The notes under the pieces are model-generated. The model did not search any database. It was given only the letters and a program-made list of their open reading frames with translations, and had not been told where the DNA came from. Below are positions 2,152-64,000 of a stretch of 64,000 bases of DNA, one piece after another (the stretch's first letter is position 1; each line of letters opens with the position of its first letter). The stretch comes from Tetradesmus obliquus (Eukaryota > Chlorophyta > Chlorophyceae > Sphaeropleales > Scenedesmaceae): positions 868,001-932,000 of the forward strand of contig CP126202.1 of NCBI GenBank assembly GCA_030272155.1. Reading direction: 5' to 3'. Position numbers and translations under genes: made by a program.

Positions 2152-5100
2152 GTGCAGCATGATGCGCAGCGGCAGGGCAGCAGCGCTAGCCCATGCCAGC
2201 AGCTGCCACCATCCATGCTGCAATCCGGCCGCATCGGCAGCAGCAGCACTGCCGCAGCTGCCGCAGCTGCTGCTGCTGCTGCTGCCGCTGCAGATTCAGC
2301 CGAGCCCGAGCAGCAGGCGCAGCAGCAGCCGCAGCCCAGCTGCGAGCCTGCTGCTGCTGCTGCTGCGGTTGCGCAGGGCCACAGTGCGCCTGCTGCACTG
2401 CGGGTGCATGCAGAGCTGCCAGTGCACGGTGCTGTGCTTGCTGCATTGAGCGAGTATTTCAAGACGCTGATTCAGAGCTGGCAAGGGGATGAAAGGAGGC
2501 TGACGATGCTGGTGGGAGAAGATGAGGCGCATGTGGCTGAGGCGCTGGTGGAGTTCATGTGAGTGCAATTAACACAAAAGTAACGTCATTAACGGTCATT
2601 GTACAATTCATGCAAGATGTTGATCCAGACAGTTGGCAAGGGGATGAGCGGCGCCGTACGCGGCTGAAGCGCCGGTGGAGTTGGTATGAGCAGCTTGTAT
2701 CCTGCCGCTGTTGTCTTTGTTGTGATCATCAGCACAGATTGCTGTGTTGCTATTGCTGAGTTGTACATGTAGTTACGTGTGCCTTGTGTCGACACCTCTT
2801 TGATATCATGTTTGTGCCGCAGGTACGGGGGGGAGCTGCCCCAGCTTGGCCATGACAACATGCTAGTGCAGTGAACAGGGCTTTCAGTCGTGTAGCAAAC
2901 GTAACCACCAACTGCTACGCCGCCGCAGGGACACTGGGGAGCTGCCCCAGCTGGGCCATGACGACACGCCAATGTAGTGAACATAGTATTAAGTCAAGTA
3001 ACAAACGTAACCGCCATCTGCGATGCTGCCGCAGGTACACCGGGGAGCTGCCGGCACTGGGCCATGATGACATGCTGCGCCTGATGCGCCTGAACTACGA
3101 TTGCACCATGATTGAGTCACATCTGTACACCAAAACAGCAACCAGTGTCTGATGTGTGTGTTGCAGGTACACTGGGGAGCTGCCGGCGCTGGGCCTTGAC
3201 GACATGCTGCGCCTGATGCGCCTGCACCACACAAAACAGTAACCACTGCCTGTTTTTGTGCCTGCAGGTATACCGGAGAGCTGCCGGCGCTGGGCCACGA
3301 TGACATGCTGCGCCTGATGCGGCTGCACCACACAAAACAGTAACCACTGCCTGTTTTTGTGCCTGCAGGTACACTGGGGAGCTGCCGGCGCTGGGCCACG
3401 ATGACATGCTGCGCCTGATGCGGCTCAGCGACAGGTTCCAGGTCAAAAACTGCCCAGCAGCATGCGCGCGCAGGTGCGCCAGCAGGGACGGACAGAGATC
3501 AAACTGCCTTGCTTGCTTGCTTGCTTGCTTGCTTTTGGCTGGATGATCGGCCGGGCATATCAGGTGTAATGAATGCAAAGATGGCGCAGATTGTCAGACT
3601 TATGTTTGTGTTCTGGCTCCTTGCACCCCGTTTGAGGAGCTGGCGCTGGGCTCTATTGTGCACCCACACATGCACCTGGGCATCTCTTTTGCCATAGGCA
3701 TATGTGACACTGACTGCTGCATGTGTGCAAGCGACTGCTGCAGGTTTGCTGAAACCCCCACGGATGAGCTCTCCCTCTATCTCTTTCGTTACAAGCACTT
3801 GTGGGTTGACTGCTGAAAGTTGTATGTTTGACTGTTTGACTGCGGCAGGTTTGCTGACACCCCAATGGAGGAGCTCTCCCTGGAGACGGTGTGCGCCATC
3901 TTTGAGTGGCCAGGGTTCCTGCAAGAAGCGCAGCCGTTCGCAGGTATGATGTGCAGAGGCAGCAGCAGCAGCAGCAGCAGCAGCGGCAGCGGCAGCAGCG
4001 GCAGCAGCATAACTGTAATGCAGGTACAGGCTGCCTGGGGTGCTGCAGCAGGCGGTGGCAGTGCCTGCCGTGTAGTGTAGGGGCCGGGTTCCTGCAGGGG
4101 TGCAGCTATTTGCAGGCCAGCACAGCCTGCCTGCTTTTGTACAGCAGCAGCAGCAGCAGCAGCAGCCGACAACAGGCACAGACTTGAGGTAGTGCTGCAG
4201 CAGTTGGCGGCTGCATCTGCCGTAGTCTTTTTACTACACACAGCAAGGCTGTATCAAAGAAGCTGCCTGCTGTGTCACCTGTTTAGCAGGCGTGTCCAGC
4301 AAGGCCTGGGCCAAGCTGCTGGATGTATTTCTTTCACAACGTAATGTTCACAAGTGATCATATGACAACCTGGCTGCCATGTTGTCTAATGTGTCATGCA
4401 GGCGTGTCCAGCAAGGCCTGGGCCAAGCTGCTTGATGTGTTTGGTGACCTGGAGGCAGCATGGCAGGACAGCGCCCGCTGGCAGCAGTTCCTGGGCCTGC
4501 CCATCAAGTGAGTGTTACTTTGAGATTTGAAAAGTGTAATACCATTTGTATGTAACATAACTGAGAACCTGGAGGCAGCCTGGCAAGACAGCGCCCGCTG
4601 GCAGCAGTTCCCTGGGCCTGCCCATCAAGTGAGCATCACATTATGATTTGAAGAGTGTTAGTAACAACTCATGTAACTTATATGGCAACTTGGACGCGGC
4701 CTAGCAGGACAGCAGCCGCTGGCAGGAGTTCTTAGCCCTGTTCATCAAGTGAGCTTGTTGCTTTTGCTTTCAAGTAGAGGACTGTGTGGTTAGCTGGCGT
4801 CTAGGCGCGCTGCTGTTCAACCTCCTGACCAAAACTTCAGTAAACAAACCTTGCTCTCTTGCTGCTGCTGCTTCTTGCAGGGCGGTAAAGAAGCTGCTTG
4901 CAAGCGATCAGCTGGCAGTGGTCAGCGAGAACACAGTGCTGCTGTGTAATCAAACACTCTACACCAATGCCATACTTCACATGCTGCTGCTTGCAGGGCT
5001 GTCAAGAAGCTACTGGCTAGTGATCAGCTGGCAGTGGTCAGCGAGAACACTGTGCTGGTTGCACTAGCAGGCTGGCTGGAAGCACACGCCCGCAGCAGCA

Positions 5101-5193
5101 CCAGCTGCAGCAGCAATGCCGCAGGTGTCCCTGGCAACGTTGGGAGCAGCGCCGCTTTGGGTGGGGGCGGCGAGGCGGCGCAGCAGCACCAGC

Positions 5194-5224
<31 letters not shown>

Positions 5225-8200
5225 GCAGCAGCAGCAGCTGCAGGTGCAGCAGGGCTGGGGTGCCGCAGCCAATGCGGCGCAGCAGCTGCAGCAGCAGCAG
5301 CTGGCGCATAAGGAGCTTGCGGAGCTGGTGAGTTGACATGCACACAACTGCTTGGTATAAGAATGGCACCCTTTACTTGCCCATGTGTTGTGGCGTGTGG
5401 CAGGAAGCAGCAGCAGCAGCTGGCGCATATGATATAAAGCAGCATTGGAAGGCACCCTGTGGTGTATACGTGGAGATTCAGCTGCTGCTGTAATAGCAAT
5501 GCCTGCCTGGACTCTCCCTGTGTACGTTCCTGCAGGCATCACAACGTGACATCAGCAGTCTCATTAATGATGCTGTCAACTGTGAGAACAGTTAAAATTC
5601 GCTGTCTCAGCCGCAACCCCAGCAACGCTGGATCAATGTATTTTGTGCTTAATTTGCCTGTGCGTTGCAGGTGCGGCTGCAGCACCTGTCGCCTGCCTTC
5701 CTTGGGAGTGTACTGAAGCGGCTGCCGGTCATGGCCAATGTGGCAACAACAGAGGCGCTGATGGCTGCAGGTGCGCGTATAGAGAGCTGCTTCTCTGTGA
5801 CTGTGCTGGGCTTTGACACTTTGCGGAGTTCAGAGGTGAAGCGACTGCCAGTCATGGCCAATGTTGCAACAGCAGAGGCGCTGATGGCAGCAGGTGGGCA
5901 GCAGCTGATTGGCTTGAATATCAACTAGACAACGTCTTGTCTTGATATGTAAGCGCTTGCACGCCACGCTGTCAGCAACCGGACTGGCATTCACTGCTAG
6001 CCATGCAGCAGTGGCCAGCCTGTGTTAAGGCAACACATGACAACTTTGGCGCTGCCTGCCTGCTCTGGTCTGCTGCTGCTGCTGCTGCTGCTGCCGCAGC
6101 GCGCTACGCCGCCGCCAACGAGGCCACGCGCAACAAGCTGCACAGCATGCCCAGCCGCTTCCCGCGCATGAAGGTGTGGGCAGTACAAGAGTATTATTAT
6201 TATGCTGCTTTGGAATAAGTTTACATGGCAGCCAACAGTAGCACTGTGGCCTGCACAGCATGCCCAGCCGCTTCCCGCGCATGAAGGTGCGGTTCGTGCT
6301 GGTGTAGTTAAAATTCGGCATCTAGCACTCACATTCTTGCATACACAGCACGCACAGCATGCCCAGCCCTTCTTACGGATGAAGGTGTGGGCTGTGCAGA
6401 GCTGCTATGTCATGCTGCTGTGGGTTCAGAGTAGATGGCAGCCAGCAGTAGCACTGTGGCCTGCATAGCATGCATAGCATGCACAGCATGCACAGCATGC
6501 CCAGCCGATTCCCGCGCATGAAGGTGCGGGCAGTACAAGAGTATTACTATGATGCTGCTTAGGATGTAGAAGATTAAAGGCAGCCAGCAGTAGCACTGTT
6601 GCCTGCACAGCAGGCACAGCATGTCCAGACGCTTGCTATGGATGAAGGTGCGAGCCGTGCAGAAGGTGTCATTGTATGCTGCTGTGTTTAGCCCTGCAGC
6701 TAGCAACATAATCTTGAATATCTGCGGTGCTCCTCCAAGCATGCGACATCATGGATTCGCTTGTCCTGCAAGCTTGCAGATGGGGTGCATCCTGCGCACG
6801 TGCTGACCAGCGCTGTCCTGCAAGCGTGTTGACCTCCTGCTGCTGCCGCGGCTGCTGCTGCCTGCGTTGCAGGTGCTGTATGCTGCGCCGCGTGCGCGCA
6901 GCGCTGTCACCCGGCTGCAGTTTGAGTGGGTGCTGGAGCTGGCTGCAGTGAAGGCCATGATTGCACAGTTCAGGTAGGAATCATACATTTTGATATGTTT
7001 TGGTATGTTTGTATTGGGGGTGGGTTCACATACAGGCAGCAGTTTGAGTGGGATCTGGAGCTGGCTGCAGTGAAGGCCATGATCGCGCAGTTCAGGTAAA
7101 GACAAGTACATCTGGTTTGAGGTTGTTTGGTTGAAGGTAGTTGCTTACAGACAGGCTGCAGTTTGAGTGGGTGCTGAGCTGGCTGCTGTCAAGGCCATGA
7201 TTGCACAGTTCAGGTACGGGCGCACAAATTTTATGTTTCAATGATATGGTGTTGATGGGGGTGGTTGCCGTCGAGTGGGTGCCGGAGCCGGCTGCTGTCA
7301 AGGCCATGATCGCGCAGTCAGGTGGGGCATGTTGTTGATGATGCTTGTGCGGTGCAGGGCTGGCAAAGTGACTATGAACCGCTACTCTCAGCCGCAATAC
7401 CTCACCACAGCTCATTCGCTTGCTATGAATATGCTTGCTGCCGCTGCTTGTGTCTTTGTTGCTTTTGCAGGGCCAGCAAGGTGACAGTGGACCGCTACTC
7501 GGAGCCGCACTACTTCAACGGCTTCCAGTGGCAGCTGGTGCTGCAGGTGCGCTGGTGCTGATGCTGCTGCTGCTGCTGCTGCTGTTGCTGGTGTATTGTC
7601 CTGTACTAGATTTCCAGCGCTTGCGGCATGTGCATGCACGGCTTCGCAGGTGCCCGCTGTGCTGTTCACACCCCTTATTATACTGCCGTCTGAGGTGGAC
7701 TCAGCAGGGGCCTGCAATTCCTTGTTGATATAGCCCTTATCTCTTCAGTGGTTTGTGTTTGTGTTTGTGCTTCACAAGATTTAATTCAATGCACTGCTGC
7801 TGCTGCCGCTGCAGGTGCTGGAGCCTCCGGCAAAGCCGCAGGCCAACAGCGCAGCTGCTGCTGCGTCAGCCTCCAGCATCGATGTCTTTGTGGGCACCAC
7901 GGCACGCATTGCGGTGAGTGCGCAGCAAGGATGACATGCGCTTGATGGTTGTACGACTGCCGGGAGGGCCCAGGCCAGATGATGCCGAAAACAAGTCTCC
8001 TGCAGCTGCAGGCAGCTGCACAATCGCAATCATCTTGCAGGAGTTTAGGAGTGTCGAGGGGCTGGCCACAGCACGCTCACAAGTTGGACACATAACCTTC
8101 AACATTTTGCTGTGCAGCGCGCTGATTTGTCGTCGCACTTCTGCCTGGTCTGTTCTTGGTAGTCTTCCCCCATTTTTCAATCTGCTAACCTGCTGACCAC

Positions 8201-8607
8201 CTTGTCCCATTCTTGGCTTCCTTTTGCTGCAACATCTACTGCAGATCGGCAGCGCCACGCACCTGCCGGACGTGCTCTACCTCCGAGGCCAGCGTGCCGA
8301 TCCTTATCACTGCCTCTGCCTGCTGACATCTACTGTCTTGCGTTGCTTTGCATTGCTCCTGCAGATCGGCAGCGCCACGCACCTGCCCGACGTGCTCTAC
8401 TTCCGAGGCCAGCTGGCAGCGCGCGAGGTGGTGTCCGGGGACTTCTCTTTTGTGAACCGCATGGAGAGCGGCTTTGTGTGCGGCACTGCGGGCTGGGGCT
8501 TCAGGAACTTCCTGAGGATCACAGACTGGGACAGTGAGCAGGCTCTGCGGCGGTTCTTCTATGACGGCAAGATTCACCTGCGCTGCAGCATTGACCAGTG
8601 CGAGTGA
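1282..8607 (+). CDS. BTB-BACK protein, POB1/LRB-like substrate adaptor of a CUL3 ubiquitin ligase
   Basis: Eleven exons join in phase: 1282-2558, 3369-3473, 3849-3943, 4402-4507, 4997-5327, 5671-5770, 6100-6173, 6873-6973, 7471-7546, 7815-7913, 8365-8607; 869 codons including TGA. The BTB fold begins with FKFLWRQDHLSDYILVI (about residues 15-32) and resumes at LRVHAELPVHGAVLAAL (about 373) through YTGELPALGHDDMLRLM and SDRFQVKNC. BACK follows (FADTPMEELSLETVCAIFEW; WQQFLGLPIKAVKKLLASD; LSPAFLGSVLKRLP). The C-terminal sheet domain ends GWGFRNFLRI...KIHLRCSI, matching the end of Arabidopsis POB1 as I remember it. Such proteins recruit substrates to CUL3 in the nucleus or cytosol. Oddities are a ~330-residue Ala/Gln insert inside the BTB fold and partial exon copies in almost every intron. 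The start is the ATG just before the BTB strand. Confidence 0.85.
2815..3368 (+). repeat. Five tandem acceptor-side echoes of BTB exon 2
   Basis: Five diverged copies of the start of exon 2, each preceded by an intron tail ending in CAG, lie at about 2821, 2929, 3035, 3166 and 3268, before the true exon at 3369. The common core is GTACACTGGGGAGCTGCC followed by the codons for ALGHDDMLRLMRL. The last three copies keep the frame for about 20 codons and then turn into intron. The two nearest the exon also share an intron segment (CACACAAAACAGTAACC), so the unit is intron tail plus exon head, about 100-120 bp. Confidence 0.9.
3735..3790 (+). repeat. Echo of BTB exon 3 start
   Basis: The segment CGACTGCTGCAGGTTTGCTG followed by a close copy of the exon 3 start (ACCCCCACGGATGAGCTCTC) lies about 100 bp before the real exon 3 acceptor at 3848. 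The copy carries its own CAG acceptor but loses the frame after about 13 codons. Confidence 0.8.
4280..4765 (+). repeat. Echoes on both sides of BTB exon 4
   Basis: Before exon 4 (4402-4507) an acceptor-side copy at about 4288-4330 repeats GCAGGCGTGTCCAGCAAGGC. After it, two donor-side copies at about 4566-4632 and 4688-4752 repeat the exon end coding for LEAAWQDSARWQQFLGLPIK together with the donor (CATCAAGTGAGC). The nearer copy is closer to the exon. Both flanks of one exon have thus been copied outward. Confidence 0.85.
4862..4952 (+). repeat. Echo of BTB exon 5 start
   Basis: An in-frame copy coding for AVKKLLASDQLAVVSENTVL follows CTTGCAG at about 4874-4880, some 117 bp before the working exon 5 at 4997. 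It ends where the main exon continues into VALAGWLEAH. Frame and acceptor are both kept, so it could in principle be used as an alternative acceptor. Confidence 0.8.
5828..5900 (+). repeat. Donor-side echo of BTB exon 6
   Basis: A copy of the exon 6 end (codons for VKRLPVMANVATAEALMAAG) followed by a GCAG|GTGGGC donor lies about 120 bp after the main donor at 5771. The frame is intact and most base differences are at third positions. Confidence 0.8.
6250..6660 (+). repeat. Four donor-side echoes of BTB exon 7
   Basis: Copies of the exon 7 end (CTGCACAGCATGCCCAGCCG, then CGCATGAAG and a GTGCGG/GTGTGG donor) occur at about 6250-6290, 6343-6390, 6480-6532 and 6605-6650. Each is followed by a similar AT-rich stretch (GTATTATTATTATGCTGCTT and variants). 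The third copy contains a small 10-bp expansion of GCATAGCAT/GCACAGCAT. Confidence 0.85.
7025..7325 (+). repeat. Three donor-side echoes of BTB exon 8
   Basis: Copies of the exon 8 end (codons for LQFEWVLELAAVKAMIAQFR and a CAG|GT donor) lie at about 7035-7098, 7152-7215 and 7268-7322. The first keeps the frame. The second and third carry small deletions that break it. All retain the GTTCAGGT-type or CAGTCAGGTG donor context. Confidence 0.85.
7350..7400 (+). repeat. Echo of BTB exon 9 start
   Basis: GTGCAGGGCTGGCAAAGTGA and the following codons copy the start of exon 9 (ASKVTVDRYSEP) about 115 bp upstream of the real acceptor at 7470. Confidence 0.7.
8224..8305 (+). repeat. Echo of BTB exon 11 start
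   Basis: An acceptor-side copy, CTGCAG followed by the codons for IGSATHLPDVLYLRGQ, lies 120 bp before the main exon 11 (8365). Over 16 codons it differs by one third-position change and one Phe-to-Leu change. The intron tail before each copy is also alike. Confidence 0.85.
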
Positions 8608-8712
8608 GCGTGCTGCATCAAGACCCGCCTGCGCAGCAGCACAGCTGTGCCTGCCCTGCAGCATTGGTCAGCGCGAAGCTGTGGCAATATCCACCTGTGG
8701 TGACTTGGGATC

Positions 8713-8862
8713 GGCATGGAGAGCGGCTTTGTGTGCGGCACTGCGGGCTGGGGCTTCAGGAACTTCCTGAGGATCACAGACTGGGACAGCGAGCAGGCGC
8801 TGCGGCAGTTTTTCTATGACGGCAAGATCCACCTGCGCTGCAGCATCGACCAGTGCGAGTAG
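8713..8862 (+). repeat. Full-frame echo of the BTB C-terminus with its own stop codon
   Basis: About 50 codons, from MESGFVCGTAGWGFRNFLRI to SIDQCE and a TAG stop, repeat the end of exon 11 (8459-8607, TGA stop) in the 3' flank. Six coding differences are visible; five are at third positions and one changes Arg to Gln. The copy keeps frame and a stop, unlike what free decay in a 3' UTR should give. Confidence 0.9.
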
Positions 8863-9619
8863 CAACGGCTGGGGTGGCTGCATCCTGGCACTGTTGTGTG
8901 TGGCTCAAGTGCTGGTCTGGAACAGCATTCAGGGTGCCGGACTGTATACCTGCACTGACTGCTCTGGAGGCATCCTCCGATTGCTGCTGTGGCGCTGGGC
9001 ATAGTGAGTGTACTTTCATATGCAGTCGTGCAGTGCATGTCAGGTGGCAGATGATGTTCAAGATGAAATGTTTGGACAGGAGGCTCATGCATGCAGCTCT
9101 GTTGTTCAGGTGCCGGCGATGACCGCACACCACTTGCTGTACGCCTGCATGCCCTTGTGTCCTTTGCATGTGCAATGTTGGTTCGGCCTGTACAGTGGTG
9201 CCGAGCAGCGTTGTGTAGTTATCAAATGCTTGGTTCATGTGGGTGCCACCTTGCACAGTGTGTGTTAAGGGCACCCGCCAACTGGCTGTTGTACCACCTG
9301 TACAAGCCAGCCTAACATCCTGTGGCTTCTGCTGTATGTCCCTACAGGCTGCGCTGTGCATGCCATGTAATGCCCAAAGGATGTTGATTCTTCCGCGGTC
9401 TCACACAAGACGCGACATAGGCAATGCCTGGCATCTGCTGATCGAGGGCGGGTTTATGTGCCACCTGTCCAAACGGCTCGTCTTCGAGCAGGTGCTCAAC
9501 AGACATTCTGTAAACCAATTTGGCAAGAAGTTTTTATTGAGCAGAAGACCGCGTGAATTAGCTGAAACGGAGACCGCTTGCTAGCTTCTGCAGTCGTCCC
9601 GCCAAAAGCGTCTGCAGCA
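8863..9619. other. BTB gene 3' flank and ARM gene promoter
   Basis: No supported gene. TGTAA poly(A) signals lie at about 9366 and 9508, either of which could end the BTB transcript. The open frames here are short and show no family signal. The region just before 9620 would hold the ARM gene promoter; no clear TATA box is visible. Confidence 0.4.
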
Positions 9620-13112: not shown

Positions 13113-13202
13113 TGATACTTGCACGGCTGTTCTGAACACCTTTGTTGCACGACCTGGTGTGCTGCTTGTGATCTGAAACTATCATTGCAACCCATCGAGG
13201 GG

Positions 13203-17771: not shown

Positions 17772-20700
17772 GCAGCGGCAGCGGCGGCGGCGTGCGGCGG
17801 CGGCGGCGGCGGCGGCAGCATTAGCATTGGTTGGCAAAAACATGCCCTGCTGTTCTTCTGCTGTTATTGATGGCGCCACAATGCAGATGGCTTTGGCTGA
17901 ACAGCAGCTGCTGTGCAGTCAGCTCACTGTAACAAAACAAGGTTATACTTGCGACTACTTGCCTGTTAGGTAGTTTTCCGTCAAATTTAGCTCTTGCAGG
18001 CTTGGCCAGTCGCCGTACTCAGCCGGCAGCGTTCCCTGGATCCTGCTGCGTGTCAACACCAGCTTCTGCAGGTTGGGTGCAGCAGCTGGCAGGCCCGGCG
18101 GCAGCTGCAGATCTGTATCATGGTGAGGCGCTGTGCTGCTGCACCCGCAGCTCAAGCAGCAGCTGCCATCGCAGTAACTCAGGAGCGCTTCAAACTCCTG
18201 CAAGTGCGGCAGCGCCTGCGCCAGTGCCGGGAGCTGCCTCATATCCAAGCTGACCAACAGAGCTTTGATGGATGTGACGTATTCCACACCGTCCATCACT
18301 TCCACCTTGACCATGATGTGTGGCGCATACACGTTGCCGCCATCACCAGTAGCGCAGCCGTCTGCTCCAGAGTACAGTAGGTAGCTTGACTGCCCGATTT
18401 CAACCAGCGACCCTAGCAGCGCCAGCTTGCTGAGAGCAAAGTCTACCATGCGGTCGTACGCAGGTGACATAGCTCCGTATCGCAGCAGCAGCCGGCCGGT
18501 TGTGTTGAGCGCGCGCACCTGTGTACACAAGCAAAGTTATTGTTGCCAGCAACGCAGGCAGCAATCTGCGCAGTACGAGTGGAGCCCTAACGAGTGTAAA
18601 GTGCTTTACAAGGACAAATAGTTTCGGCTGTTGAACGCATCATCAGGTGCTCCTGACATGCCGAACATGAGTGCTTTGCCGAACATGATAAAATATGTAG
18701 GTTCAGCTATGTGCATTGCAGTAGTGTGTGCAACAGCAGACAGCATGCATGTGGAAGTTCAATGTGCAGTGTCACACGTGCATGTGGAAGTTCAATGTGC
18801 AGTGTCACACGTGCATGTGGAAGTTCAATGTGCAGTGTCACACGTGCATGTGGAAGTTCAATGTGCAGTGTCACACGTGCATGTGGAAGTTCAATGTGCA
18901 GTGTCACACGTGCATGTGGAAGTTCAATGTGCAGTGTCACACGTGCATGTGGAAGTTCAATGTGCACGGTGCACCAGAGGTCCTCCATCAGCTCGAGTGT
19001 ACGCACCTGCGCCCGCTCTTCAGTGATGCTGTCGACTTTGCAGAGCCCTGTCATGCGCGTACCCTTGTACTGCAGGGTAGTGTCGGCGTACAGCGGCGCG
19101 CAGCCCTCAAGGGCAACGTTGCCGTCTAATTTCAGGCCTCTGATGTCTGTTGCGCCCGGCACAATGCCTTTCCACTGCGGGAAGAGGCCCGAGAGCTTGT
19201 TGGAAGATAGGTCGATGAGCTCGATGGCGGGGCGAGTCACGCCTGCAGCTGCGACCATCGCCTGCCAAGCAATCGGCACCTGCATGCAGCAGATGCAAGC
19301 GATGCACATGCGTGATGTGGGTTATGTGATTGAATGCCCAGCTGCTGCGTGCATGTAGCAGTGACAGCAGCGCGCGCTGTGGGTTATGTGTTCGAATGCC
19401 TAGCTGCCGCGTGCACGTAGCAGTGACAGCAGTGCGCGATGTGGGTTATGTGATCGAATGCCTAGCTGCTGCGTGCATGTAGCAGTGACAGCAGCGCGCG
19501 CTGTGGGTTATGTGTTCGAATGCCTAGCTAGGCTATAGCTGCTGCGTGCATGTCCTAGCCTAGTCGCCTAGCAGTGACAGCAGATGCAGCAGCATCTGGC
19601 GCTGGACTGTGGCAGTGGAGCCCATTATAACGCAACACATACAGTGCAACATCTTGCTGTACACCTACTGGTTTACCCGCGGGCAACCACATGCGTGATC
19701 ATTATCTGTAGCATGTGGATATCTGCCGACTAGCGTGATTCAGGAACTGCACCCTCGCATGCCGTGTGCCGCACTTTGCCTGAGCTGCTGCCAGGGATGC
19801 ATGCTGCCGCCGCAGCAGCAGCGGCTGCTAGGCAGCCGTGCTGCTGCTGTCCACTATACATCTGGCTCTTCGTGTGCCGCACCAGCAGCAGCTGCAGCAG
19901 CTCACCTCGCCCGTAAGCATATTGCCAGACACATTCAGCTGCGTCAGCTGCCCCCAGCTGCCTAGCTGCGGCGGCAGCTTGCCAGTCAGCAGGTTGTTCC
20001 CCAGGTCCAGGGTTTGCATGCTTGAGCCACCAGCCCACCACGCTGCAGGCAGCGGCCCTCGAATGCCGCAGGGGGATCCGGTGGGGCTCACAAACTTCCG
20101 ATTTAGCTGAAAAGGCTGGGGGCAGGAGTGACGCAGCGTCAGGCACGATTTTGAGTGCGTCGCACGTCACACATTGCCAGTGGCAGGCAGGGGGCAACAA
20201 TTTACACTCATAGTGCTGAAGTTCAAACTCAAGGTGCAGCCGGGTAGCGTGCTACAGCTGTATATATTATTATCATGTCAAGATAATATAGATGACATCC
20301 TATCTACAGGGATTCAGCAACAAGGGCTGGCAGTATACATACGTACCCGTACAAACAGCAGCTGCAGCTTCTGCAGGCCAGCAATCAGGTGGGTCGGCAG
20401 GGTCCCTGACATGCAGAAGTGCACGATGAACACCTCCCGCAGCTGCTTCAAAGCAGCAAGCTGCCACGGCAGCTGGCCACCATACACCTGCAAGGCAGTG
20501 CCAAAAACAAGCGAGGTGGTTAGTCACATGCTCATTGTGGTCCTGGCACTGAATAGTATACATCTTATAGGTCCTGCAACAGCTGCACCAGACGCGTCCG
20601 AGCAAGACTGCCCTGCGCTGCTGTAGGTACCTGACACTCTGCTTGCCTTACAGATCCGACGTAGTACTGACACTTTGACTATAGACTAAAAAAAGGTGAC

Positions 20701-37875: not shown

Positions 37876-40800
37876 CTACACCCTGCTTCCAGCAGCACGC
37901 CTGCTGCACACCTCTTCGAGCGCAGCATCCTGCAGCAGCATCAGCAGCAGCTGCCGGCAGCCGCCCAGCCCCACAGCCTTGTTTGCACTGCTCACCAGCC
38001 ACTGCCGTGCACCCTGAGCCCGCAGCTGCTGCATGCTGCGCTGTGCTTCCGCAGCATCACACAGCAGCACAGCCCTCAGCAGCTGCAGGAATTGCTGCTG
38101 GCCTGCGGCACTGAGCAGCACCTTGGCACCGCCTGCCTGCTTGCTTGACCCTGTCGCTGCTACTGCAGCAGGCCGCTTCTTGCTGCTGCTTGTTCTCGCA
38201 GGAGTCTGTGTACTTCCAGTGCCCTGGGTTGCAGTTGCGTCGTCATCAACTTCTGCTGCTGCTGCTGCTGTGTCTGCAGCCTGCTGTTCTCCACTAGCAT
38301 CCTTCCCACTGCTGCTGCTGCTGCTGCTGCTGCAGAGCTCCAGCCCTGCCTGTGCCACTGCCGCAAACTGCTCCGCAGTCAAGCTGCCACACAGTACACG
38401 AGCATCCAGCTGCACCAGCAGTTCCAGCGCAGCAGCAGCAACAGCAGCATCCTTGTCCCAGGCCTTTGCTGCCAGCGTTTGTAGCAGCTGCGCGGCTGCT
38501 GGGGAGCCGGCAGGCAGCGCCACTAGCTGCAGCAGCTTGATGGCAGCCCTGCAGCAGCAGCAGCAGCAGCGGCGGTGGCCGCGGGGGAAGGAGTTGGGAG
38601 TGTGCAGCAGGCTGGGTGTAGCTGTACTTGTGCATTGATTCAAAGTTGCACTGCGAATGCAGGTCAAACTCTTCAGCCGGCCCTGCCAGGTAAAGCTACA
38701 CCAGCACGTGGTATATGATACATATCAAGCTGCGACCTCAACATTTGCCAGGTGCTCAGCTTGTATTGCAGCAACACCAGCACATCATCTTGCGGACCGG
38801 CATCAAGCTCACCTGCGTGCCTTGATGGAGGTGTCATGGTTGAGGCAGTACAGCAGGCCCTCTAGGGACTCCCCGCACCACAGCTGTGTGTGCAACAGCC
38901 CATCATCTGCAGGCAGCCACACAAGCAAGCACATGAACTGGTGTGGTAACAGCACAGGCACTGCATGACGGATCTAAGGGCCTGCTTCACGCTGTACTGC
39001 GTTGATGAGAGCATCTGGCCCTGAACGGTGCTGCTGGCGGCTGTGTGTAGAGCACCTGCATCACACCCCATCTGGCACAGCGCAGCAGGGCAACAAATTC
39101 CATGTTGTGCTCTGCAACAACAGCATCATGTAATGAGATTGTAACCACAACTTGCAGCCTCTGCTCACCTGGGCAGCTGTCCATGAAGCGCTCCACAGTG
39201 CTGCTCATCAGGCCCAGCGCAGCACAGCGCACTCCTTACCTTGTGCTACTCATCCACAGTGCTGTTAAGCTACTTATGCTGATATCTCACCTGGGCAGCT
39301 GTCCATAAAGCGCTCCACAGCGCTGCTCATCAAGGCCAGCGCAGCACAGCGCCACTCCACAGCGCAGTTGGCTGCAGGCCGCAGCAGCTCCGCACAGCCC
39401 AGCAGCAGCTGCCGCACACCCGCGGGGTCTGCTGCTGCTGCTGCCGCTGCTGGTGGTGGTTCCTCACTGCTGGTGTTGCTGCGGCTGCTGTCAGCCAGCT
39501 GCTGCATGTGAGGGCCTGTGTACACTCGCTCAAGCAGCAGCATCACCTGCAGCAGCACACACACACACATCTGTATTTTGGTGCAAACTCACAACCTTGT
39601 CCTGCTGCTGCTGCTGTTGCTGAGGGGCCAGAGTGCACTGCAGGTGTGAGCAGATCACTGGTGGGCGGCAGCTGTTAAACATATACATGCACACCAGGTC
39701 TAAGCAGGTGTGGTGTGGGCGTCTGGACCAATCTGCACAGTCACAGCAGTAATCTTTGGGCACAGGTGCAGCATGCTGCCTTCTCACCTTCTTGATTGCT
39801 GCCTTTTCAGCCTCAGCACTGCCTTTAGCTGCTTGATACAGGCCCTGCTGCTGCTGCTGCTGCTGCTCGTGCACCACCAGTGCCACAAGGCCCCTCACCA
39901 GCTGCTGCGGCTTGTCATAGCCAGCCAGCAGCACTGCCAGCGAACCAAAGCTGTCACTGCTACACCAATCCTCCCACTGCCGCTGCCTCTGCTTTTCATT
40001 ATCATTGCAAGCCACACCCTGGGCAAAGGCTGCTGACGGCTCTACTGCTGCTGCTGCTGCTGATGCTGCACTGCCTGCCGCTGAGTCATCTTCTGGTGCG
40101 CAAAGCTGGGTAGTATTCTCAGGTCTGCCAAATGGCCCAAGCAGCATGCTGTGCTTCAGCTCCATCATGCAGCAGTCATGAGGCGTCTCACATGGCCGCA
40201 CTGCTGCTGCTGCTGCACCCTCACCAACGCTATAGCCAGCTGCTGCTGCTGCTGCTGCTGGCCTGCCATCAAGGTGCATCCAGCCGTACGCAGCTTGCAG
40301 GAAGCGTCCACCTGCTGCTGCCAGTTGCTGCCAGTCCAGTTGGCTGCTGCTGCTGTATGTGTTGCCATTGACCTCAGCTGTTCCACCTGATGCTGCTGCC
40401 GCTGCTGCTGGTGCCAGTGGTGTGTCCTGCAGTGCAGCAGCTGCCTGCAGCAGCTTGACTACAGCGGCACAGGCCTCCCCTGGCCGAAGCGCTTCACCTG
40501 TGCAAGCAGCAATGCTATTGCCTGGCTGATGGTAAGGCTGCTGTGCTGCTGGCTGCCACCTAGCTGCCTGCAGCAGCTGCTGTGCTGGGTGCATGTGACT
40601 GCCACCAGCGCCACTGCTGCTGCTGCTGTTGCTGCTGTTGCCGGGTGCGGTGTCAGCGCCTAGCTGTAGGAAGACTAGCAGTAGGTGCAGCTTGGGTGAG
40701 CGCTGCTTGGCTTGCAGCTGGCAGATGCCTGTGAGGGAGTGGAAGTGGTGCAGCAGCGACACCACTGCAGCAATGCAGGGGTACCCTAGCTGGTACAGCC

Positions 40801-44154: not shown

Positions 44155-45220
44155 TGCGGCGGAGGGTGGTGCCGGCAAGCAGCTGACGCCGCAGCAGCAG
44201 CGCCAGCAGCAGATGCAGCAGCTGCTAGGGGGCGGGATCAGGAGCCAGGCACAGCAGCAGCAGCAGCAGGCGGGCGATCATGCTGCTCCTGCAGCACATG
44301 ATGCTGCTCCAGATATGGAGGTGAGGCATGTTACATGTACATGTTATAACACTGTCTTTCTCTCTACTTGGCAACTCAAGATCACGCGATCACAGCTGCC
44401 GCTGACGGCAAGGCAGTGTGGAGGCTGGACCTGTTGGTGGCAGCCCAGCTGCTGCTCATGCATTTAGTACACCTGACAGCTGAACGTCACATTCACATGC
44501 CAGCATTGACATCTCCTTAGGAGGCGTCCTCCCCAGCGTTTCACAGCCTCATCATGCTGGCTTGCCTGCATGTGCACATTGCAGGTGGATCATCCAGCCC
44601 AGCAGCAGCAGCAGGCAGCTGCGGTTGAAGCCGCACCTGACCAGGGCACTGCCAGACAAGAACACCATCAGCAGCAGCAGCAGCAGCTGGTAGCAAGCCA
44701 GCTAATCCCTGCCTTGCGGCAAGTCCAGGTGTGTGTGGGTGTCTGTGCTAGCTTGTTCCGCCTGAGACGCACTACCCACGCAAAGCATTCCAACATGTGT
44801 GCAGTGCAGTGCAGCGTAGGCCAGTTCCTCTGACATCTGATACCGCCTGGAGCACATGCAAGCCTCTCGCATGCTCCTACGCACTACTTTGATGTTCTCT
44901 TGAGTATGGTCAGCGTGGTGGTTATGGATTTCTTGTGTGTAACGCCTGTATGTTGCAGATCACTCAGCCGCAGCTCAGCCAGCTGCTGTGGAAGTTTGCT
45001 GACATTTTGGACATGTTTGTATGTGCAAATGCCCGTGCGTGCTGTCCTGCAGATCACTCAGCCGCAGCTCAACCAGCTGCTGTGGAGCAGCTGCAGATCA
45101 GCCATGCAGCAGCTGCTGCAGCCTTTGCAGCTGCAGCTGCAGGGACTGCCTACCACGCTAGCGAGCAGCAGCAGCAGCAGCAGCATTGGCAAGCAGCAGC
45201 AGCCCAGCAGCATGCAAGTT

Positions 45221-52223: not shown

Positions 52224-52261
<38 letters not shown>

Positions 52262-52806: not shown

Positions 52807-52854
<48 letters not shown>

Positions 52855-53112: not shown

Positions 53113-53124
53113 TGTGTTTCGCAT

Positions 53125-54298: not shown

Positions 54299-54337
<39 letters not shown>

Positions 54338-54720
54338 ATGCATCTGCTTGTTCTCAGGCAGGCACTGCAGCCACGCCTACCGCAGCAGCTGCAGCTGCTG
54401 TGACAGCTGCTTCGAAATCAAAGTCAAGTTCAAAGGTTCTGCCTCTTGCTGCAGCCGGCAATGATGCCAATATGCCAGCTGCAGAACCTGCTGCGGCATG
54501 AAGGCGAAGGCACACACGAGGCCAAGCACCAGCAGCAGGATGTTGCTGTGGCGCTGCTGCTGCGCAGCACAGCATGCCCACTGAGCATCCCTGCAACGGC
54601 CATGCTACCGGCGCAGTCACCATGCTAGCCGGAAGACCTGGCTGCCGGCTGTGTGGGCTGCACCTCCTGCTGAGCATAGCGCTGCTGTCCTGCGTACGCT
54701 GCTGCAACTGCTGCTGCTGC
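53125..54720. other. Intergenic, no supported gene
   Basis: Promoter side of the minus-strand Gln-rich gene and 3' flank of ISCA. A 259-codon plus-strand frame (53446-54225) lacks family signal, splice support and a convincing start. A CTG tract lies at 54300-54337. Confidence 0.4.
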
Positions 54721-54721
54721 T

Positions 54722-54772
54722 CGTGTGGTGAGCGGCTCGCCGCAGCCGCATGAGCCCTTTGCGTTGCTGCGA
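54722..54772 (-). repeat. Terminal echo of the ISCA last exon
   Basis: On the minus strand codons for KGSCGCGEPLTT copy the end of ISCA (KGSCGCGESFTT) about 90 bp beyond its stop. The stop TGA reads CGA here, so this echo is open, unlike most terminal echoes in the window. Confidence 0.85.
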
Positions 54773-54812
54773 CTGCACCCGCTGCCACTGCTGCCACTGC
54801 TGCTGCTGCTGC

Positions 54813-55756
54813 TCATGTGGTGAATGACTCGCCGCAGCCGCAAGAGCCCTTTGAGTTGGGGTTGATGAACACAAACTCCGACCTGCAAGCATGCATGGAA
54901 GCACGAAAGTTCCAGGCGAAGTTTGTCAGTTATAAGTCACAGCAGCTTTGCATATAACGCAAAAACCTGACACCCACAGCAGTAGCATGGCATGCTGTCT
55001 GCTGCTGCTGAGGCACGCCATGCACTGCCTGAAGCTTGTCGCCCGCTGATGGCATGGCAGCAGAAGTTGCATGATGCAGACCCCTGTTGTCCGCTGGTTT
55101 TATCAGCTAGAACGCATGAAGCACGCATGCATGAATGAAGCTTGCAGGGCGCAACATGAAGCAGCACACGGCAACAGCGCTGCTGCTTACTGCAGTGCCG
55201 CTGCCGTCCCTGTCCACACTCACTTCAGGGGTTCGTCAATGTAGTCCATCTTCGTCCCCAGCACGTGCATCAGCGCTGCAGGGTCGATCAGCAATCGTAC
55301 GCCATGCTCCTCTACTAGCTCATCAAACTTGCCCTTGGTATCTGCAGCAGTAGCAGAGGAAACGGCCCCAGTCAGAGCATGCACGCCAGAGCAGGGCAAC
55401 TGGCCTGCGCCAAAGCATTTTAATGGGAACGTTTCGTGGATGTGCAGCGAAGCTGGCTCACCTGAGTAGTTCAACGTGTAGCTGAGGCCAGAACACCCAC
55501 GCTTCTTCACGCCAAGCTTGATGAACTCCTGGCAGTCACGGAGCAGCAAGCACCAGGTCAAACAACTAATCATGCACGAACTATACGCATCGACGCAAGG
55601 CTGCATAAGCTCACGTACCTTGTGCCGTGCCTGAAGCAGTTCCCGAATCCTGTTGGCTGCTGCTTCTGTGAGGTCTACTGCTGCTTTCTTGGCCAATGGA
55701 GTTCGTGCAATCTTTTTAGCAGCTTCCGCTAGGACTGCAAGTGTGGTGGTCGGCAT
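54813..55756 (-). CDS. ISCA: A-type iron-sulfur cluster carrier, ISCA1/IscA-like
   Basis: Four exons, 55756-55619, 55528-55462, 55341-55224 and 54882-54813, join in phase to 130 aa plus TGA. The three cluster-binding cysteines are present: GVKKRGCSGLSYTLNYS (Cys58) and GSCGCGES (two Cys near the C-terminus). LIDPAALMHVLGTKMDYIDE and SEFVFINPNSKG are typical of the mitochondrial ISCA1 group. The protein accepts and passes on Fe-S clusters for maturation of [4Fe-4S] proteins. The N-terminus (TLAVLAEAAKKIARTPLAKK) is basic and amphipathic, fitting a mitochondrial presequence. Length is normal. Start: the only upstream ATG in frame at exon 1. Confidence 0.92.
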
Positions 55757-57792: not shown

Positions 57793-57837
<45 letters not shown>

Positions 57838-57873
57838 CGCTGCTGCTGAAGCGCAGCATGCTTTCATCAGCAG
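56640..57873 (-). repeat. Five tandem copies of the GST terminal exon beyond the stop
   Basis: On the minus strand copies of the C-terminal codons (HGHDEALWGSNPGLAGFFRA, AQPAVLGWCKGARPDLL) occur at about 57860-57690 (partial), 57545-57412, 57395-57156, 57085-56925 and 56840-56680. The copy at 57395-57156 is complete, from SFADAVVFAVLWDNVAVHGH to DLLKE and a TGA stop. The others are open for long stretches but lose the frame or end. They follow the working terminal exon (58201-57874). Confidence 0.85.
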
Positions 57874-60800
57874 TCACTTTGTCAGCAAGTCTGGCCTGGC
57901 CCCTTTGCACCAGCCCAGCACAGCCGGCTGTGCCGCATAAGCCCTGAAGAAACCCGCGAGCCCAGGATTCGAGCCCCACAGCGCCTCATCATGCCCATGC
58001 ACCGCCACATCGTCCCACAGCACTGCAAACACGACTGCATCAGCAAAGGATGCACTGCTGCCGACAGTGTGGCTGCTGCTGCTGCCGAAGCGCTGCAGCA
58101 GGGCCTCCATGACTTTGTAGAAGTACGGGCGCTTGTCAGGGGAGGATGTGTAGGCGAGTTTTCCGTCGGGGCCGCCAAAGGCTGAGTCGAGCAGAGCAGA
58201 CCTGCACAGCAGCAGCAGCAGAAGCAGCATTGATCCATGCATGCGATGTGGCACACACAGGCTGTAGCATCATGGTGTCTGCAGCTGCAGCAGGGTATGC
58301 ATGATGTTGTTACACATGACTTTGTAGAATTGCGGGCGCTTGTCAGGGGAGGATGTGTAGACAAGATTTGTGTCGGGGCCGCTAAAAGCAGAGTCGAGGA
58401 GGGCAGCCCTGCACAACAGTAGCAGCAGCAACAGAAGCAGCAAGGTTGGTGATGAGAGTTTTGATGTAAGGTTATGATGCTGCTGTGGAGAGGTTTTGTA
58501 GGCGTTCTCTGTGTTTGGTCCGCCAAACACGGATTGAAAGAGGACACGCCTGTGGCAGCAGCAGCAGCATATCAGCGGGGGCAGCGGCAACACAGGTTCG
58601 TGCAGTGCAGAAGTGGGGGAGATTTTTTGGGGAGGATGTGTAGGCGAGTTTTGCGTCAGGGCCGCCAAATGCTGAGTCAAGGAGGGCAGGCCTGCTGCCG
58701 CAGCAGCAGCAGCAGCAGCAGCAGTGGCGGTGGCGGCGGCAACGGGGCAACATCGTAACTGGCTGCACACGTCACAAATGAAACGGCAGCCATCCACCCA
58801 CCCCTCTATATGCAAAAGCTGTTGCACCCTACTTGATTGTGTGCAGCATTCACCTGAACTCCACGGTTGCATCAGCCGCCACATCAGCAGCATAGTCCCG
58901 CTCCTCAATCCCGTACTGCCCAGCACGCTTTGCAAACGGACAGCACCCGTCACAGACACAGCATCATAAAAAGCCTCAGAAAACCACCCCCACCTGAAGT
59001 CCCCCTATGAGCCTCTCGTTGGCTCCTGACTGGGGTTCTCACTCCTCGTTGAGTGGAGCATGTAATGTAATGTAATGTAATGCATCAGCCGCCACATCAG
59101 CAGCGTAGTCCCTCTCATCATCAGCCCCATACTGCCCGGCACGCTTTAAGACCCGCGACAGCACCCGTCACATACACAGCATCACAAGAAGCCTCGCAAA
59201 CTCAACCCCACCTAAACTCCACTGCTGCATCAGCCGCCACATCAGCAGCATAATCCCTCTCCTCGTCTTTGCCGTACTGCCCAGCACGCTTCAAGAACCG
59301 CCGCAGTACCTTCACACACAAGCCTCACAGGAAGCCTTGAAAGATGCCAACCTTGCGCCACCCCCACCTGAATCCTCCGCCCCCATCAGCTGTCACAGCA
59401 CCCTTCACACACACAGCCTCACAAGCAGCCTTTGAAGCTGCCCCCACCTGAATTCCACTGTTGCATCAGCCGCCACATCAGCAGCGTAGTCCCTCTCCTC
59501 GTCAGTCCCATACTGCCCATCTCGCTTCGCCAGCCGTCGCAGAATGGCAAACGTCTCCAGCAGCGGCGGGCTGCTGCTGCTGCTGCCGGGAAGGTAGACC
59601 AGCGGCAAGTGGCCGGTGGGGCTTTCTCCTGCAGCAGATGCAGCGAGGACAGCAAACTGAACTAGGCAAACTACTCGAGTCGTGGAAGCGCATCAAGTGG
59701 CAGCTGCAAGTGGCCGGTAGGGCTCTCTCCTGCAGCAGATTGCAGCTGGCACTTATCACAGCACTGCCAGTGTTGGTGGCACCAGCGCAGCATGTCCTTT
59801 GATTTAACGCATGAGTAGGCCTTTCAAGCTGTGGCTTGCACTTGGTGCAGGACTCGCACCCAGGCATGTGTCACGCACCACCAGCTAGGCACACAACATA
59901 CTTAGGCCTTCCATCTAGGACCCTGCCAGGCGCTGCCGAACCATGCCAGGTGCTCCAAAACCTGTTGGTTGAATGATGCAAGCTTTCGCGACTGTGATCA
60001 CAGCATTCAACAGCTGCACGTACACCAGTCCAGAGATATATGTGATTATTGTTATTACACCCTGAGGCCATACAACGCTATGCGCGCCTGAGGTACAGTG
60101 GGCCCCAGGCCAGCACCCCAACACCTCCTCCCCTGAAGTCATGCCCGGATTCAGGTGCTGCTGCTAATGCTGCTGCTACTGCTGCTGCTACAACAGCACT
60201 TCTAGCACAGCCACCCCCCAGGCAAGCACTCCAAACGCTCCGCCCCTGAGGCCATGCCACACTTAGCTGCTGCTGCTGCTGTTAGTGCTCGTGCTGGTGC
60301 TGGCGCTGGTGGTGGCGCTGGTGCTGCTGCTGCTGCGGCCATACAGCAAAATGCGCACCTGAAGCCATGGCCTTTTGCTTCAGGCCAGCACCCCAGCCAG
60401 CCCAGTCCACCACCTCCTCAGTGAACCTGCGCATAACAGCAAGAAGCCATAGAAAAACAAACAGCCAGCAAATGCAGGTTGTGCGCAATGGTTGTCCACA
60501 CCTCCTTGGTGAACCTGGCACGTAACAGGCAGAAAGCAGTGCAATATCAACGTCCAGCATTTCAGGCTGTTCGCAATGTGCTGCACACCACCTCCTCAGT
60601 GAACCTGGTGCATGACAGCAGGGTCAGCAGTAACAGCAGGAATCCAAAGTTGCCACCGGTGCATGGATCACCCTGCGTCCATGCGGCAGATCCCGGCCGA
60701 AAGTCGCATAGACAGGTGCAGTTCTACTCAAAGATCACATGCACGTCTCCATATAAGTGCTTGCTGTGCTTAAAAGTGCTGGCTGGCGAGGCGACAACCA

Positions 60801-61890: not shown

Positions 61891-61990
61891 AAGCTCACCC
61901 TGTAGAGCTGTACGTGGCGGCCCTTCCCTTTGACAGGCAGCCGCATGTTGGGTTTAAGCATCAGCTGCTGCTCCAGCTCCCTGCAGCAGC
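61890..61990 (-). repeat. Echo of an RWP-RK gene exon
   Basis: On the minus strand GGAGCTGGAGCAGCAGCTGA and codons for MLKPNMRLPVKGKGRHVQLY copy the exon at 62243-62147 (MLNPNIPLRVKGQTRRERRYAQLY) about 250 bp further on. The copy is in frame with a small deletion. Confidence 0.75.
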
Positions 61991-64000
61991 AGCGGCAGCA
62001 GTAGCAGCAGCAGCAGCGGCGGCGGCGGCGGCATCATCAGCAGCGTATGTTGCCGTTGAAGAAAGTACTGTGCTGCGGACCAGCACCAGCACAGATATGT
62101 GCATGTCGCGTACGTGAGGTGCTGTTGCTCCAAGCCATGCTCACCCGGTACAGCTGTGCGTAGCGCCGCTCCCGGCGGGTCTGCCCTTTGACGCGCAGCG
62201 GGATGTTGGGGTTGAGCATCATCTGCTGCTCCAGCTCCCTGCAGCGGCAGCAGCAGTAGCATCAGCGGCGGCGGCAGAGTTGCCGTTGAAGAAAATACTG
62301 TGCTGCAGACCAGCAGCAGCACAAAGGGTTGCATGTGCAGCACATGGGGCTTCCCCGTAGTAGCGCAGCACACCGCGCACACAGATGCACGTGCCGACCA
62401 TGCAGCACGCTGATATGCAAGGACGCATGTCAGCATGGCAATCAGGCAGCTGTGCATACTTACCGCAGCCACTCTGCATCTTGCTCAAACCCCACTGCCA
62501 CTCTGCATCTTGCTCAAACCCCACTGCCACTCTGCATCTTGCTCAAACCCCACTGCCACTCTGCATCTTGCTCAAACCCCACTGCCACTCTGCATCTTGC
62601 TCAAACCCCACTGCCACTCTGCATCTTGCTCAAACCCCACTGCCACTCTGCATCTTGCTCAAACCCCACTGCCACTCTGCATCTTGCTCAAACCCCACTG
62701 CCACTCTGCATCTTGCTCAAACCCCACTGCCACTCTGCATCTTGCTCAAACCCCACTGCCACTCTGCATCTTGCTCAAACCCCGCTGCCTCGTGGTAGCG
62801 CAACACGGCGCGCACACAGATGCAAATGTGGACCATGCAGCATGCTAATGCGAACAGAAGGCAACCATCGCGCAGCTGCACTTGACTCAGCGCAGCATGC
62901 TGATACGCATGGGGTGCAGCCATCGCGCAGCTGTGCATCACTCACTGCAGCCATGCCGCGTCCTCTGCAGGCCCTACTGCATCATAGTAGCGCAGCACGC
63001 GGCGCAGCGGAGCAAACTTGCGGCTGGGCCAGCGCTTGATGCCGAAGCTCTTTCGCAGCGCCGTTTTAAGAGCTGTCACACCCATGCCGAAGGTGCAGGC
63101 CGCTGCTTTTTGATCCAGATGGAAAACCTGCAGGCATGTTTGTTGCACGTACAGCAGTTAAAGGCGGTTTCGCGCACGTTGAAGCTCAGCCGCGCTGCTT
63201 CTGCATCCAAACGGAACACGCGCAGGCGTGTGCATGGCGTAGCATGGACAGCATGTTGGTGTATGGCGTAGCATGTATGGTGCATGGCGTAGCATGGACA
63301 GCATGTTGGCGAGTGCATGGCGTAGCATGGACAGCATGTTGGCGTGTGCATGGCGTAGCATGGAAAGCATGTTGGTGTTGGAGTGGATTGAGGGCTGTCT
63401 TGTTGACAAACCAGCTCAGCCGTGCTGCTTCCGCGTCTAGTTGGAAGACCTGCAAGCATACACCACATGCATGCCCCACAGCTGCAACTTCCATGCGCCA
63501 TATGGCGCAGCAAGCGCAGCTTGGCATTGAAGTTGCAGCTATGGGGTAATTGTCACGGACATACCTGCCGCTGCTGCTGCCTGTGTCCTAGCGCCGTCTT
63601 GTGCTGCTGCGGTTACCAAGCTTCAATGCAGCAGCGCGCACCTGGAACGGCTGTACACAGCTATATATTTAAACATGTCGCGGTGCAGGGTGTTTGATAC
63701 ATAGCGGGGTTATGTTGGTGAGGTACAGGGTGACTGCCGGGCCCACCGCCGCAACACGGCATTCGCTGCTGTTAGGGCTACGCAGCTTGTGCCCAAACTT
63801 GAACCAACAACTTCAGGCATGTAGCGTGCAAACCAATCGAAAGTAACAGTTTGACGTTTGAGATCAGACACAACGAAAGTAACAGTTTGACGTTTGGAAT
63901 CAGCCGCACCAAACAGTACAGAGAATATATTAGACTCACCGCCATGAGGTCCTCCGCTGTTATCTCGCGTTTGTTGATAGTCGCAGTTGCACACGCCAGC
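61890..64000 (-). CDS. RWP-RK domain transcription factor (5' end outside the window)
   Basis: Exon 63127-62946 encodes VFHLDQKAAACTFGMGVTAL, then KTALRKSFGIKRWPSRKFAP, with the RWPxRK signature after a helix pair (FHLxxKxAAxxLGVxxTxLKxxxRxxGIxRWPxRK in the family). Another exon near 62243-62147 reads ELEQQMMLNPNIPLRVKGQT. A further candidate at about 63994-63710 contains TVTFDWFARYMPEVVG. RWP-RK factors act in the nucleus in nitrogen response and gametogenesis (NLP, NIT2, MID in algae); which subfamily this is cannot be told. Exon joins around the 29-bp repeat and the 3' end are unresolved. Flanking copies of the domain start are present. Confidence 0.7.
62463..62790 (-). repeat. 29-bp minisatellite made from an exon end, about 11 copies
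   Basis: The minus-strand unit GGGTTTGAGCAAGATGCAGA+GTGGCAGTG is repeated about 11 times almost without change. In one frame it codes GFEQDAEWQ, matching the exon end ...RVLRYYDAVGPAEDAAWLQ and its echo RAVLRYHEAAGFEQDAEWQ. The last unit ends GAGTGGCTGCG|GTAAGT, a strong donor. As 29 is not a multiple of three, the array cannot be read in one frame as a repeat protein. Confidence 0.9.
63135..63460 (-). repeat. Two echoes of the RWP-RK exon start plus a ~33-bp repeat
   Basis: VFRLDAEAARLSFNVRETAF (about 63222-63160) and VFQLDAEAARLSWFVNKTAL (about 63452-63392), each after a CAG acceptor, resemble the exon start VFHLDQKAAACTFGMGVTAL (63127). They are more alike to each other than to the working exon. 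Between them (63228-63378) about four units of GCATGGCGTAGCATGGACAG+CATGTTGGCGTGT occur. Confidence 0.75.
63835..63905 (-). repeat. Short direct repeat in a possible upstream RWP-RK gene exon
   Basis: CGAAAGTAACAGTTTGACGT is present twice, 38 bp apart; on the minus strand both copies read KRQTVTF in frame, giving DSKRQTVTFVVSDLKRQTVT. It is an in-frame micro-duplication, the smallest example of the tandem copying seen elsewhere. Confidence 0.7.

Follow-up and report, generated by a model that had tools for sequence, protein, structure and literature searches.

Partial exon copies in the window

We analyzed a 64-kb stretch of the genome of the green alga Tetradesmus obliquus (bases 868001-932000 of contig C12; hereafter the window), in which introns contain partial copies of the ends of the exons that border them. 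The alga is placed in the Scenedesmaceae (Sphaeropleales), and its 104.66-Mb genome is assembled in 17 contigs of chromosome scale. An earlier reading of the window, made from the sequence alone (the sequence-only reading), had counted over 40 such copies in 64 kb, at both ends of exons and in many genes. The presence of partial exon-end copies in introns is confirmed here. Our intron scan gave 46 copy intervals for the window, or 38 when a 29-bp minisatellite is set aside; in the window and stretches sampled from the whole genome, 51 of 289 introns (approximately one in six) in our gene models held a copy of the adjacent exon end that reached the splice junction. In the following, acceptor-side copies repeat the head of an exon and donor-side copies repeat its tail.

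Most of the verified copies reside in the introns of a BTB/BACK-domain gene, with the following features:

1282-8607, forward strand: BTB/BACK-domain gene, deposited as OEZ86_004475 (T. obliquus); Pfam domains BTB and BACK; protein P0121 mapped by tblastn
2816-3325, forward strand: five partial copies of the exon 3369-3473 head, in an acceptor-side array with a period of ~101-132 bp
4290-4330, forward strand: acceptor-side copy of the head of exon 4402-4507, 95% identical, intron flank unmatched
4567-4748, forward strand: exon 4402-4507 tail copied twice on the donor side, with GT after both copies
4881-4941, forward strand: acceptor-side copy of the head of exon 4997-5327, with 7 differences, all at third codon positions
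6251-6526, forward strand: tail of exon 6100-6173 copied on the donor side, at 6251-6286 (identical, 36 bp), 6352-6384 and 6482-6526
7034-7323, forward strand: tail of exon 6873-6973 present in three donor-side copies with a period of ~120 bp
7353-7404, forward strand: head of the exon that begins at 7471, copied on the acceptor side
8245-8293, forward strand: acceptor-side copy of the head of exon 8365-8607, 96% identical, flanks unmatched, at a distance of 120 bp; the genome search found the spacer once
8716-8860, forward strand: last 48 codons of the BTB gene repeated as a terminal copy, whose stop is TAG instead of the gene's TGA

The deposited protein OEZ86_004475 matches our predicted BTB query at 94% identity over 78% of the query, and each of nine tested BTB segments occurs once in it. 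Extra DNA copies of these segments were detected for eight of the nine by tblastn (the 8245 copy was missed) and for eight of the nine by a frame-wise peptide scan (the 7341-7400 copy was missed); the two scans combined gave extra DNA copies, one to five each, for all nine. The protein of a relative (P0122 from EukProt), 54% identical over 61% of the query, aligns one-to-one with P0121 over the part spanning eight of the nine segments. Part of the first copy in the 7034-7323 array (7071-7095) was predicted as an exon by our own model and is absent from the deposited protein.

Copies were also found at other loci of the window:

30739-30797, reverse strand: head of exon 30426-30682 copied on the acceptor side (95%) in a TPT-family transporter gene (Pfam)
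30208-30251, reverse strand: tail of exon 30426-30682 copied on the donor side in the same transporter gene
39169-39235, reverse strand: tail of exon 39291-39546 copied on the donor side (93% over 68 bp); genome matches local only, spacer single-copy
44959-44992, forward strand: head of the exon that begins at 45053, copied on the acceptor side (97%) with unmatched flanks
54664-54858, reverse strand: end of an ISCA-like gene and its partial terminal copy; exon and copy probably swapped in our own model
58315-58689, reverse strand: two acceptor-side copies of the head of exon 57874-58201
58854-59143, reverse strand: two donor-side copies of the tail of exon 59212-59288, of which 59083-59143 stops short of the junction
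59701-59729, reverse strand: acceptor-side copy of the head of exon 59423-59628

For the ISCA-like gene, SCGCGESF, which we take to be the ISCA motif, fits 54813-54858 better as the exon, in agreement with the sequence-only reading. Some arrays of that reading, namely the leucine-rich repeat (LRR) arrays at ~15-16 kb, the Ala/Gln-rich arrays at 49-50 kb and the helical-repeat arrays at 51 kb, are probably coding repeats and not exon copies.

Gene models, sample and scans

The comparison sample consisted of 19 additional 10-kb stretches in which all 17 contigs were represented, giving 254 kb together with the window. Two further loci, L001 and L002, are parts of the window's own region and were removed before every scan. 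Gene models came from a predictor that trained itself on these 254 kb of DNA without RNA, and the junctions discussed throughout are predicted ones. It learned CAG|GTGAG-like donors, TGCAG|G-like acceptors and a median intron of 270 nt, and returned 341 exons in 42 well-scored genes. Pfam domains were found in six of seven predicted proteins tested (BTB and BACK, TPT transporter, condensin Cnd1, HA2 and OB-fold of a DEAH-type helicase, peptidase M16, and methyltransferase). Besides the probable swap in the ISCA-like gene, the models apparently merged adjacent genes and missed a Cys-rich gene at 35-36.7 kb, whose arrays were hence not compared with junctions.

In the main scan, 60 nt of each exon end were aligned to the intron bordering that end, for the 289 introns of at least 60 nt. 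The scan left out 3' flanks, and terminal copies such as 8716-8860 are additional to its counts. The minisatellite at 62.47-62.79 kb was kept in the permutation control, the wider copy search, and the identity, stop, codon-position (first set), splice-score, conversion and intron-count analyses; it was left out of the flank-divergence, position-wise similarity, single-copy, displaced-flank and private-change analyses. For codon positions, a strict set was also formed by removing repeat-protein genes, which left 49 of 57 pairs.

Copies are local and in direct orientation

At an alignment score of at least 38, 31 exon tails and 40 exon heads matched their own intron, compared with 0.0 expected when introns of other loci were the target (five permutations). 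Thus, the copies are more frequent than chance. When the opposite ends of these exons were used, 14 and 9 matches resulted, some from exons too short to separate the two ends; copying thus concerns mostly the side at the junction. At a score of 36, direct-orientation matches occurred in 73 of 578 comparisons, reverse-complement matches in 0 of 578, and matches to more distant introns of the gene (at least two introns away) in just 3 of 550. A simple chance origin was therefore rejected, and the pattern is that of local, direct duplication of exonic sequence bearing a splice signal. A wider search yielded 124 copies, 67 on the acceptor side and 57 on the donor side; they bear out the earlier statement that both exon ends are affected. 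Identity to the exon averaged 0.915 over 91 pairs and ranged from 100% down to 72%, consistent with the suggestion that the process is probably ongoing.

Dispersed paralogues do not appear to be the source of the copies, nor do the spacers appear to be a repeat family: two copies searched against the genome had local matches only, and two spacers were each single-copy, in a search that ignores very common words. It might be argued that the copies are assembly errors, or coding exons of repeat proteins mistaken for copies, and some arrays in the window do lie within Ala/Gln-rich or repeat proteins. However, most copies differ from their exon and the two tested spacers are unique, which makes assembly error unlikely; the contigs are of chromosome scale, and genes with conserved domains (condensin Cnd1, DEAH-helicase domains, M16 peptidase and TPT transporter) carry copies as well. 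We regard this explanation as very unlikely.

Distribution over the genome and intron length

Junction-reaching copies were present in 20 of 79 introns in the window and 31 of 210 outside it, and in 10 of the 18 stretches with scored introns. Window and outside differ only marginally in frequency (Fisher p 0.056), so that in kind the window is no exception; the sequence-only reading had named an exceptional window, with copies no more frequent than chance, as grounds for giving up its claim. Its view of a genome-wide process is supported in that copies also occur beyond the window, and must be qualified: no junction-reaching copies were found in the other 8 of the 18 stretches, and the frequency per locus was very uneven, from 0/15 to 7/14 introns, with 0 of 2000 permutations equally uneven. 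Copies were frequent (up to 7/14 introns) in stretches L015, L016, L017 and L019; L007, L012 and L020 had 0/15, 0/14 and 0/13, respectively.

Introns with copies were longer than those without (median 451 vs 256 nt, p 4e-8). Within the 289 introns, donor-side and acceptor-side copies shared an intron in 13 cases, compared with ~3.5 under independence. The suggestion that the copies reflect intron gain was unsupported: they lie within existing, predicted introns, and none of these introns was shown to be new.

Anchoring at splice junctions

The predicted splice junction was reached by 61 of the 67 acceptor-side copies and 44 of the 57 donor-side copies. Among those, the splice dinucleotide was retained in 55 of 61 (AG) and 30 of 44 (GT), and median splice scores of copies and real sites were 7.8 vs 9.6 for acceptors and 6.8 vs 8.6 for donors. 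The distance from copy to real junction was usually ~90-135 bp, with more copies at about twice that distance and further, and many spacings were not multiples of 3.

Among 101 repeat arrays, 59 had a spacing of 80-140 bp. Fifty of these spanned a predicted junction, a count that false exons predicted inside arrays may inflate, compared with 30.8 under random placement; 0 of 300 random placements reached 50. The remaining nine comprised four in introns, four in intergenic regions and one in an exon, where random placement gave 5.3.

Origin of the copies

On balance, we consider it probable that short-range duplication recurs near exon ends, is tolerated because the products are spliced out, and lengthens existing introns. 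Short stretches around exon ends would be duplicated repeatedly nearby, in direct orientation and usually ~90-135 bp apart, probably when breaks are repaired locally or DNA is replicated with errors. A copy could persist if it falls to the intron side of the active splice site, because in living cells it would be removed with the intron, leaving the protein unaltered and the intron longer. The same duplication inside an exon would be harmful. Arrays may then lengthen through further tandem duplication, and copies later decay, possibly with some exchange of units with the functional exon end by unequal recombination between homologues. Duplication combined with such a splicing filter accounts for why the copies are local, direct and anchored at junctions, why they keep splice sites and decay, and why introns that hold them are longer.

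The behavior of the intron flanks agrees with this in part. The flank aligned (local score of at least 50) in 27 of 86 events; in these, intron divergence was 6-13% and exon divergence 5-9%, roughly as expected of a duplication spanning the junction. Copies with a duplicated intron part (16 events) had 6.4% intron substitutions. In 47 flank-less events, exon differences were 10.5% (~90% identity) and the intron part was at the background local score. Single copies were mostly flank-less (28 of 44). In the flanked kind, the intron and exon parts have diverged in step, so the flank-less kind does not look simply older.

Several observations weigh against duplication plus splicing as a complete explanation. 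First, 27 of 37 tested flank-less junctions had no flank match, with exon parts ~89% identical. Displaced flanks were found within 300 nt at the other 10 of 37 (z at least 2.5), and were rejected as a full account. Position by position, similarity was about at background from -11 outward in 27 flank-less acceptor-side copies and from +7 outward in 14 flank-less donor-side copies, and the adjacent 15 exon bases were 85-100% and 71-100% identical, respectively. Such an ending near the splice-site core is not predicted by plain tandem duplication; either the copied piece ended there, or exon and copy were kept alike later. Second, repeats of 80-140 bp in introns and intergenic regions numbered 8 vs ~20 under random placement, though such regions would be expected to be the most tolerant. 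Faster decay may explain part of this shortage.

One alternative is a duplication that reads the junction itself, for instance via RNA or a spliceosome-bound transcript, and puts the exon end with the core splice site into the adjoining intron. The loss of similarity at -10/-11 and +6/+7 next to well-preserved exon bases would fit it, as would exon parts of 93-97% with unmatched flanks at 8245-8293, 44959-44992, 39169-39235, 4290-4330 and positions 8809-8874 of stretch L003, and the concentration of 80-140 bp repeats on junctions. However, flank-matched copies are similarly spaced, so one process may produce both kinds; the displaced flanks supply a match for some flank-less cases; and most donor-side copies carry GT, which would be absent from free exon or mRNA templates. 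We consider this alternative quite unlikely. A simpler possibility is that these are ordinary tandem duplications, the excess at junctions arising from selection and from the better visibility of exon-derived sequence. Arrays of other spacing classes show no clear preference for junctions, lying there about as often as random placement gives, and exon copies, guarded on one side by a functional exon, would stay visible longer. This possibility is already strained by flanks that are unmatched despite low exon divergence, and the synonymous bias described below also speaks against it; we see it as unlikely.

The third difficulty for the favored duplication and splicing filter lies in how the copies have changed. 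Differences from the exon at the three codon positions numbered 69, 59 and 163 in 57 pairs (one copy per junction), a third-position share of 0.56 (bootstrap 0.50-0.63). This exceeds the 0.41-0.455 expected of non-coding copies, while fully constrained copies would give 0.57-0.83. Changes private to the nearest copy were synonymous in 28 cases and not in 26, where a synonymous share of 0.286 was expected (p 0.0004, an optimistic value in that arrays partly share units). At 3268-3324, three synonymous changes fall within ten bases, and 60 flanking intron bases contain one change. On the other hand, 9 of 10 indels in the 57 pairs break the frame and seven stop codons have arisen by substitution in 91 pairs. 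Full coding constraint was rejected, the signal being intermediate only. Thus, the copies decay, yet they look as if they had been coding for some of their history. This would be explained if units were exchanged with the functional exon end, if the copies came from another haplotype, or if some of them were translated; no mosaic conversion signal was detected, identical runs not being clustered (p 0.2).

The copies might instead be functional, as alternative exon ends or regulatory decoy splice sites used by some transcripts and kept by selection. Their good splice scores, the end of similarity near the splice-site core and the excess of synonymous changes are in line with this. An acceptor-like site (score at least 4) was present at the inner end of 0.45 of the 44 donor-side copies vs 0.22 in the background, and a minority of them may qualify as complete exons. 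In contrast, the opposite site at the inner end of the 61 acceptor-side copies showed no excess (0.15 vs 0.15), so that most of these cannot be complete exons, and a role as complete alternative exons was rejected for them. Frame-breaking indels, spacings that are not multiples of 3 and the single occurrence of each tested segment in the deposited BTB protein also speak against function. Splice sites at junctions with copies are no weaker than those without, and compensation for weak sites was rejected. We regard a functional role as unlikely. It is likewise quite unlikely, in our view, that the copies form a standing reserve of spare exon ends, made by junction-reading copying, exchanged with the functional exon and partly under its protein-level selection.

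The favored duplication and splicing filter, taken alone, leaves the unmatched flanks, the synonymous bias and the intronic and intergenic shortage unaccounted for. Functional copies and junction-reading duplication explain some of these points, and each meets contrary evidence.

Relation to known systems

The following comparisons refer to the accessible parts of the cited papers. Tandem duplication of genomic exon sequence that bears AGGT is known to give rise to introns (PMC3443670; PMC4974935). This resembles the present case in that a local direct duplication of exonic sequence gives a second splice site and the extra copy is spliced out, as is probable here. Here, however, the copies lie in existing introns, involve one real junction and exon end, and often form arrays. 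Small tandem duplications also arise from break repair via CST/Pol alpha-primase fill-in (PMC8355091). These are likewise local and direct and have no dispersed source, but splice junctions are unmentioned in the accessible part of that paper, and the ~115 bp spacing and unmatched flanks are not accounted for.

Tandemly duplicated, mutually exclusive exons of the Dscam type (PMC3236188) also repeat exon sequence within one gene. Those exons are used in alternative splicing, whereas here we found mostly one-sided pieces and a few whole-exon copies, and the inner-end splice sites expected of complete exons showed an excess in donor-side copies only. Introners of Micromonas (PMC3443670) are, like the present copies, algal intron-building sequences. 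They form dispersed families, unlike the two copies and two spacers searched here, four of four of which matched their own locus only.

In the literature searched, from which subscription papers were mostly absent, we found no description of introns widely holding junction-anchored copies of their own exon ends. A word search of two papers on genomes of Sphaeropleales or S. obliquus (PMC12571836; PMC7590803) found neither 'intron' in the main text nor 'tandem'. A mean intron of 462 nt has been reported for T. obliquus, with exon-end copies unmentioned in the accessible part (PMC5966456).

If about one-sixth of introns hold a copy of their own exon end, in most cases with the splice site retained, this alga offers a natural experiment on how the spliceosome chooses among near-duplicate sites, and its intron-removing machinery must keep selecting the correct one among look-alikes. 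Copies this common would also inform intron lengthening and the raw material for new exons and introns. Such exons can also mislead gene predictors; our own model erred at 7071-7095 and, in all probability, in the ISCA-like gene.

Other repeats in the window and sampled stretches

Three minisatellites were noted in the window. The 29-bp minisatellite (62468-62789, 11 copies at 99%) extends to a predicted exon boundary within a gene model that has a stretch we presume to be RWP-RK-like. The other two, with periods of 33 bp (18746-18966, 6.7 copies, 100% matches) and 62 bp (19316-19529), are within the span of an LRR gene model. CAG/GCA runs are very abundant in the window and the sampled loci. 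They occur in coding sequence (poly-Gln and poly-Ala) as well as in the tails of introns, where they may take the place of a polypyrimidine tract before acceptors.

In stretch L021, a 68-bp sequence at 8210-8277 and 8321-8388, starting with TGTAACG and ending with CGTTACA, had 31 genome matches, several of them paired ~206 bp apart. It is perhaps part of a small transposable element, and 8210-8388 was rejected as a perfect flank-less copy on account of these dispersed matches. The condensin (Cnd1) gene of the same stretch contains four predicted in-frame 78-bp exons at 4960-5657 that are copies of one another; these units are possibly true exon duplications or whole-exon versions of the copies described here.

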